Positions 28,778 through 29,052 of a DNA stretch of 64,000 bases are shown here, in pieces. The notes below the pieces were generated by a model. The model was not told where the DNA came from, did no database searches, and worked only from the letters and a program-made list of their open reading frames with translations. How positions within the stretch are numbered: the first letter of the stretch is position 1; the number at the start of each line of letters is the position of its first letter. Position numbers and translations under genes: made by a program. This DNA is from Pseudomonas sp. R4-35-07. GTDB taxonomy: Bacteria > Pseudomonadota > Gammaproteobacteria > Pseudomonadales > Pseudomonadaceae. Location: contig NZ_CP027732.1 of NCBI RefSeq assembly GCF_003852235.1, positions 5,580,001-5,644,000 on the forward strand, written 5' to 3'.

Positions 28778-29052
28778 CTATGGTTGCTCTCTAAGCAATT
28801 GGGCAGCGCCGGGATTCCCAGTTCCACCCAATGGGCGGCTTCTTCGAGCAGCAGGTCAATGCTCAAGCGCTCCACCCCCGGCATCGAGGCCACCGCTTCC
28901 CGGCGATTTTCACCGTCCAGCACGAATACCGGCAGGATCAGATCATTCGTCGTCAGTACATTTTCACGTACCAGACGGCGAGAAAAATCATCACGGCGGT
29001 TGCGACGCAGACGTGTGGCGGGGAATAGCCGGTTGGCGGGGGTAAAGCTCAC
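28778..29052 (-). pseudogene. hemB: hemB remnant: porphobilinogen synthase gene with large internal deletion
   Basis: The first 83 codons are excellent HemB ([20 protein letters not shown], then [13 protein letters not shown] and LPVFVLDG, then [11 protein letters not shown], to LGIPAL). The sequence then jumps to CAATTGCTTAGAGAGCAACC and a TAG, which in another frame reads QLLREQP-stop, like a HemB C-terminus. Intact HemB has about 337 residues, so roughly 740 nt are missing. The junction is out of frame, and the open frame runs on to a TGA at 28756-28758. The zinc/magnesium and active-site lysine regions are gone, so no enzyme can be made. HemB is normally essential for heme, so another copy must exist or the sequence is misassembled here. 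Confidence 0.8.

Follow-up and report, generated by a model that had tools for sequence, protein, structure and literature searches.

The first pyrrole of heme is produced by porphobilinogen synthase (PBGS, HemB), for whose zinc-independent class the HemB of Pseudomonas aeruginosa is a model. About half of the PBGS sequences known in 2003 contained the determinants for a catalytic zinc and about half lacked them (PMC535902); P. aeruginosa PBGS (1b4k, 1gzg), whose gene PA5243 is given as PBG synthase in PMC7857532, has no required catalytic metal ions according to the title of reference 8 of PMC535902. For P. putida, the literature describes a Zur-regulated zinc-independent HemB paralogue and the pairing of two metal classes (Haas et al. 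2009, PMC2770081), and in cyanobacterial Zur regulons hemB2 is a Zur-regulated gene (PMC6103462). According to the review PMC7242693, uroporphyrinogen III has no other described route of synthesis.

The locus analysed here lies in a window of 64,000 nucleotides, by which we mean the whole stretch of Pseudomonas sp. R4-35-07 DNA under study. Its ppk-linked hemB gene (hemB1) is now a stub which represents the N-terminal quarter of the P. aeruginosa class, and the intact relatives of the gene carry the metal site DVALDPFTTHGQDG; the difference is that 739 nt including the active site are gone and that the frame is shifted. The stub forms a truncated and frameshifted ORF of 98 codons with a GTG start (28756..29052, minus strand), as seen in the alignment of relatives and in a partial NCBIfam match. 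It consists of hemB codons 1-83, which run from position 29052 down to 28804 and show 93% protein identity to the intact gene of genome G031, followed by 15 codons in another frame, which run through the last ~30 nt of the gene. The first base past codon 83 corresponds to position 989 of hemB when numbered as in P. orientalis DSM 17489 and Pseudomonas sp. W4I3, the closest two of the relatives fetched. Aligned with these, the missing stretch is exactly 739 nt, and as 739 mod 3 is 1, the frame shifts. In both relatives the lost nucleotides are flanked by copies of GCGCTG at hemB nt 244 and 983, and this 6-bp motif marks the deletion junction in the window (28804..28809, minus strand). The remaining 3' end (28778..28803, minus strand, delimited by comparison with relatives) includes the original stop codon (28778-28780), which is now read past out of frame. 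The shifted frame stops at 28756-28758 within the ppk leader, a ribosome site plus ppk start codon that is near-identical in relatives (28757..28777, minus strand), and overlaps the ppk start codon as ATGA (28756-28759). A first-pass annotation of this DNA had read 83 codons, a loss of ~740 nt and the survival of both gene ends and the ppk leader from the letters, and the alignment bears it out on every point; the comparison of the locus in close relatives that it had proposed yielded a full hemB of 337 codons in both P. orientalis DSM 17489 and W4I3. With the full gene at the same place in these two genomes and an out-of-frame deletion here, hemB1 qualifies as a pseudogene. Against the NCBIfam porphobilinogen synthase model the stub reaches 80.3 bits (cut-off 297) and covers model positions 3-76 of 327 only. 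Judged by its sequence, it lacks the features of a functional HemB: it falls below the family cut-off, and the full barrel, the active-site lysines and the metal site are missing.

Downstream of the deletion lies ppk, encoding an intact polyphosphate kinase of 740 aa (26537..28759, minus strand; ORF list, ppk search, NCBIfam). On the other side, a spacer kept as in relatives (29053..29260; locus comparison) separates hemB1 from a divergent dedA gene (29261..29896, plus strand), whose product is assigned to the DedA family of membrane proteins by an NCBIfam match below the family cut-off and which directly adjoins ppk in lineages without hemB1. Further away on the minus strand are hemC for hydroxymethylbilane synthase (44918..45859), hemD for uroporphyrinogen-III synthase (44163..44921), a hemX-like gene (43029..44144) and a gene for a hemY-type TPR protein (41782..43023). 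The earlier statement that hemC, D, X and Y are intact nearby holds for hemC, hemD and hemY, which are full length and above their NCBIfam cut-offs; for the hemX-like gene it extends to an open frame of 371 codons, whose NCBIfam matches stay below the curated cut-offs. Elsewhere in the window (20428-24413), frames resembling a fimbrial usher, chaperone and subunit cluster were seen by eye.

The first-pass annotation had also considered an assembly collapse. According to this alternative, the full gene is present in the organism and 739 nt were dropped by an assembly or sequencing error; we regard this as very unlikely. The genome of the window is a single contig of 5,836,505 bases, the break coincides with a 6-bp repeat only and with no long repeat, and a PF00490 search of the genome finds no further copy of the lost part. 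Moreover, P0001, a 98-residue protein with an identical junction tail, is encoded in two contigs, the longest of which is chromosome-sized (5,833,149 bases). Besides the start, it differs from the stub in the window by four residues (T4I, L38M, S56L, P81S), and such a diverged copy of the junction-bearing stub makes an assembly error unlikely. This counter-support is weaker if P0001 stems from another assembly of the same isolate, and it speaks somewhat for an error that the stub of the window is itself undecayed: over 81 codons, which offer few sites, it shows no private amino-acid change and one private synonymous change relative to four relatives. The same low count fits a recent event. A junction query of 86 bases gave a match of E 1e-21 or better in one genome, namely the window's own, out of 398 genomes sampled from the larger genus, with at most two first-look candidates scored among the matches listed. 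In the ppk tree, the ppk of the window groups with those of P. orientalis DSM 17489 and Pseudomonas sp. W4I3 (support 100/100). The internal deletion of hemB1 looks real and recent, and it predates the split of the two genomes unless P0001 represents the same isolate. The positions changed in P0001 are conserved in an anchored alignment of 56 distinct genomes with the Asp-type enzyme: L38 and S56 occur in 56 of 56, T4 in 55 and P81 in 54. The window's own stub shows no amino-acid decay, and it is these changes in P0001 which suggest that the stub may be free of constraint.

The overlap of the shifted frame with ppk suggests another use for the stub. The 98-codon ORF could encode a small protein with a function of its own or couple the translation of ppk, with ribosomes reading the stub and stopping at the ATGA of the ppk start. 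Its end exactly on the ppk start, as well as the same length and end in P0001, would agree with such a role. However, the stub is devoid of the catalytic residues and of the greater part of the barrel, P0001 alters two residues that are invariant in 56/56 relatives and two more that are conserved in 55 and 54 of 56, and a 4-nt ATGA overlap can arise by chance. In the relatives of this subgroup, among those listed, the intact hemB ends 17-18 nt before ppk with no overlap. We therefore consider a function of the ORF quite unlikely; translational coupling of the frameshifted stub with ppk could nevertheless occur at the 4-nt overlap. An element of ppk embedded in the 3' end of intact hemB genes was rejected, as synonymous codon conservation is not raised in the last 26 hemB codons (0.55 vs 0.63 elsewhere in 33 intact genes; 0.69 vs 0.66 in a subset of 17 genes).

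The first-pass annotation had predicted a second full-length hemB, and the whole-genome PF00490 search delivered it: two matches were found, one full-length gene (438.8 bits) and the stub (62.6 bits), and no third HemB. The surviving gene (hemB2) lies elsewhere on the chromosome (G000:C1:2072303-2073241; 324 aa, L001 1480-2454). Its metal site, DTCFCEYTDHGHCG, contains three cysteines, in contrast to the DVALDPFTTHGQDG of the lost gene's intact relatives. The protein scores 532 bits with E. coli PBGS (1b4e) but only 239 bits with P. aeruginosa PBGS (1b4k), and it exceeds the NCBIfam porphobilinogen synthase cut-off (585.6 vs 507 bits). The alignment with 1b4e spans residues 8-320 and includes all three cysteines and both lysine-bearing stretches (ystKfas, mvKpaga), to which we presume the two Schiff-base lysines belong. 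The survivor is thus predicted to be a PBGS of the cysteine (zinc, E. coli) class, with full length, three-cysteine site, lysine stretches and family score all in accord; judged from the cysteine ligands, it probably needs zinc. The difference to the E. coli enzyme (1b4e, 1i8j) is that we are dealing with a Pseudomonas paralogue whose zinc class is known from sequence alone. Side by side with the surviving hemB, an open frame of 1641 aa is found at L033 11346-18055 together with small ones, of which two look alike by eye.

P. orientalis and P. paralactis encode a protein identical to the survivor, and the enzymes of P. simiae and P. haemolytica deviate from it in one residue; compared with the P. 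orientalis gene, 58 codons differ synonymously and none in the encoded amino acid. Rahnella, Edaphovirga and Caballeronia also contain relatives, at about 80% identity. In a quick DNA tree built from 63 sequences (36 of 38 named loci chosen from 80, 26 genomes with only the cysteine-type enzyme, and the window), the survivor branches beside P. orientalis (support 91) and groups of the ppk tree recur; just 19 of 56 inner branches are starred, and transfer between lineages is possible. The survivor is a deep paralogue also present in relatives and no new duplicate. In this respect the earlier proposal of a recent replacement of hemB1 by a paralogue stands; what has to be added is that the same loss recurs across the genus.

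With the P. putida system (Haas et al. 2009, PMC2770081), our locus shares the genus and the pairing of HemBs from different metal classes. In contrast, it is here the zinc-independent copy that is lost, PF00490 detects no third HemB, and near the survivor no Zur-like site was seen with a palindromic consensus: within two mismatches of it, no Zur box was found in the 20-kb locus. A single site with three mismatches lies at L033 9034, more than 1 kb upstream of the survivor. For Zur control of the survivor, this consensus thus gave no good site. A Zur-regulated zinc-sparing paralogue would have a zinc-independent metal site, where the survivor has cysteines. Cyanobacterial hemB2 (PMC6103462) offers the likeness of a second HemB linked to metal supply; that gene is Zur-regulated, whereas here a single copy is left and no Zur site is evident.

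Taking these results together, we conclude with a probability of roughly 0.9 that the ppk-linked zinc-independent hemB is a recent pseudogene, generated by one 739-nt deletion between short repeats, and that heme is still made thanks to a second HemB, of the cysteine class, which the genome possessed beforehand. Most likely, a replication slip or illegitimate recombination would have removed the active site of hemB1. Note that 41 6-mers are shared at distances of more than 500 nt within the hemB of P. orientalis; as 6-bp repeats are this common, the repeat at the junction alone is no proof of the mechanism. When the deletion happened, the porphobilinogen step would already have been covered by the cysteine-class enzyme. 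The latter would now supply all porphobilinogen and would need zinc in vivo, and its presence would be the reason why selection tolerated the loss.

In relatives with both genes, the ratio of mean dN to mean dS is 0.043 for hemB1 and 0.053 for hemB2 (231 pairs), computed for 22 of 26 dual-copy genomes; in L135, L188 and L198 the start motif identified no second gene, and the second gene of L129 had the wrong length. For the P. fluorescens subgroup, the values are 0.039 (hemB1) and 0.031 (hemB2). Both genes are consequently under strong purifying selection in dual-copy genomes, so that neither of them is a spare in decay. For hemB1 from genomes whose one match is of the Asp type, the values are 0.077 (91 pairs from 14 genes of 1011 nt, at larger distances) and 0.050 (21 pairs from 7 genes of 1008 nt). 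Relaxed selection on hemB1 prior to its loss was not seen, the value being ~0.04 in dual-copy relatives; as hemB1 is not relaxed there, losing it is expected to have a cost.

The reduction from two HemBs to one of the cysteine type is not new to the genus. A HemB family search found a match in 247 of 249 Pseudomonas genomes, including the window's own; 42 of the 249, with no match or with one match mostly of unclear type, were searched again. Among these 42, a single match of 939 or 942 nt, which is the cysteine-type size, was found in 35, the 957-nt type in four, a fragment in one and no match in two. The cysteine motif was confirmed in all 26 genes fetched from the 35; the other nine were assigned by match length. 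A single cysteine-type HemB thus occurs in at least 35 of the 249 genomes, which is a lower bound, the typing of each copy having covered a part of the genomes with at least two matches. In all 35, ppk is present with dedA directly beside it and no intact hemB in between (26 + 9 loci). Of 29 named genomes searched with hemB1 DNA, 26 gave a match. The other three are P. putida NBRC 14671 (no match), P. helleri DSM 29165 (no more than 35 nt, spanning the leader and start of ppk) and P. putida W15Oct28 (no match); the first two have one PF00490 match each, of the cysteine type, and the last carries, as its second HemB, an enzyme of a third, non-cysteine type.

With a nucleotide profile built from 43 intact hemB1 genes and the ppk leader, the latter contributing a part of each score, hemB1 remnants (E 3e-4 or better) were detected in 14 of 36 spacers from genomes with only the cysteine-type enzyme (Zn-only; P. 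helleri and the above 35). When these spacers were shuffled once, none gave a remnant. In the other 22 spacers, including a clade with a 213-base spacer, the profile found no remnant. The remnants mostly comprise the last ~80 coding bases and the leader, broken by gaps; G214 also retains the first 72 bases of hemB1, and G107 and G072 show weak 5' pieces. The 14 genomes fall into five separate clades of the ppk tree. Decayed 3' remnants lie before ppk in G214, G064, G256, G072, G107, G203, G020 and the P. helleri clade (e.g. L106, L107, L288), 5' remnants being rare. It is a possibility that ppk makes use of the last ~80 nt of hemB1, which for this reason would outlast the gene.

The ppk tree comprises 84 genomes, namely the 36 Zn-only genomes, 24 genomes holding one Asp-type match, 23 holding at least two matches (the second copy mostly untyped) and the window. 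On this tree, the Zn-only group needs seven changes (6 to 7 in 5-95% of bootstrap trees; at least four forced by starred branches), and the distinction of lost versus intact hemB1, including the window, at least eight changes of state; as ppk adjoins the hemB1 locus, recombination could blur these counts. Parsimony counts carry no direction, and the number of changes would equally accommodate a gain of hemB1 by some lineages in place of its repeated loss. For the clades bearing remnants, however, the direction is given by the decayed pieces before ppk. In addition, hemB1 and ppk occur together in 47/47 loci taken from genomes in which hemB1 is intact; dedA follows beyond hemB1 in 28 of the 47, those whose stretch matched dedA, most stretches ending inside or before this gene. 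A gain is therefore very unlikely, and hemB1 loss seems to have occurred several times in the genus. We found no published report of recurrent hemB loss in Pseudomonas in the open-access literature; one may exist.

On the best reading, the window is a recent instance, with both gene ends preserved, of a recurrent shift to the zinc-type porphobilinogen synthase. Somewhat more tentatively, with the balance tilting slightly in its favor, the paired HemBs of two metal classes would be an old two-enzyme system of Pseudomonas which was repeatedly cut to one enzyme in either direction; the Zn-only outcome would tie heme to zinc, and in the window this step would be visible inside the divergence of a single species group. 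Should many pseudomonads rely on the cysteine class alone, conclusions drawn from P. aeruginosa on metal need, on sensitivity to lead and chelators and on HemB-directed inhibitors would not be transferable to the genus. In the window, a fresh deletion that kept both ends, beside relatives holding both enzymes, makes the cost and the benefit of the switch directly testable.

Opposite single copies are also seen in neighboring lineages: G024 and G123, with one Asp-type match each, stand among Zn-only genomes on starred branches, and G018 and G022 beside a Zn-only clade (86/66, weak). The arrangement looks as if a two-copy ancestor had been sorted both ways. Finally, the third HemB type, with the metal site DVALDPYTDHGHDG, was observed in L289 (G155), L290 (G178), L291 (G236) and L295 (P. 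putida W15Oct28), and it resembles the Zur-linked HemB described by Haas et al. 2009 (PMC2770081). By eye, its neighbors look like PyrC-like frames in G155, G178 and G236, with COG0523-like frames in two of these, and amidase- and QueD-like frames in L295.
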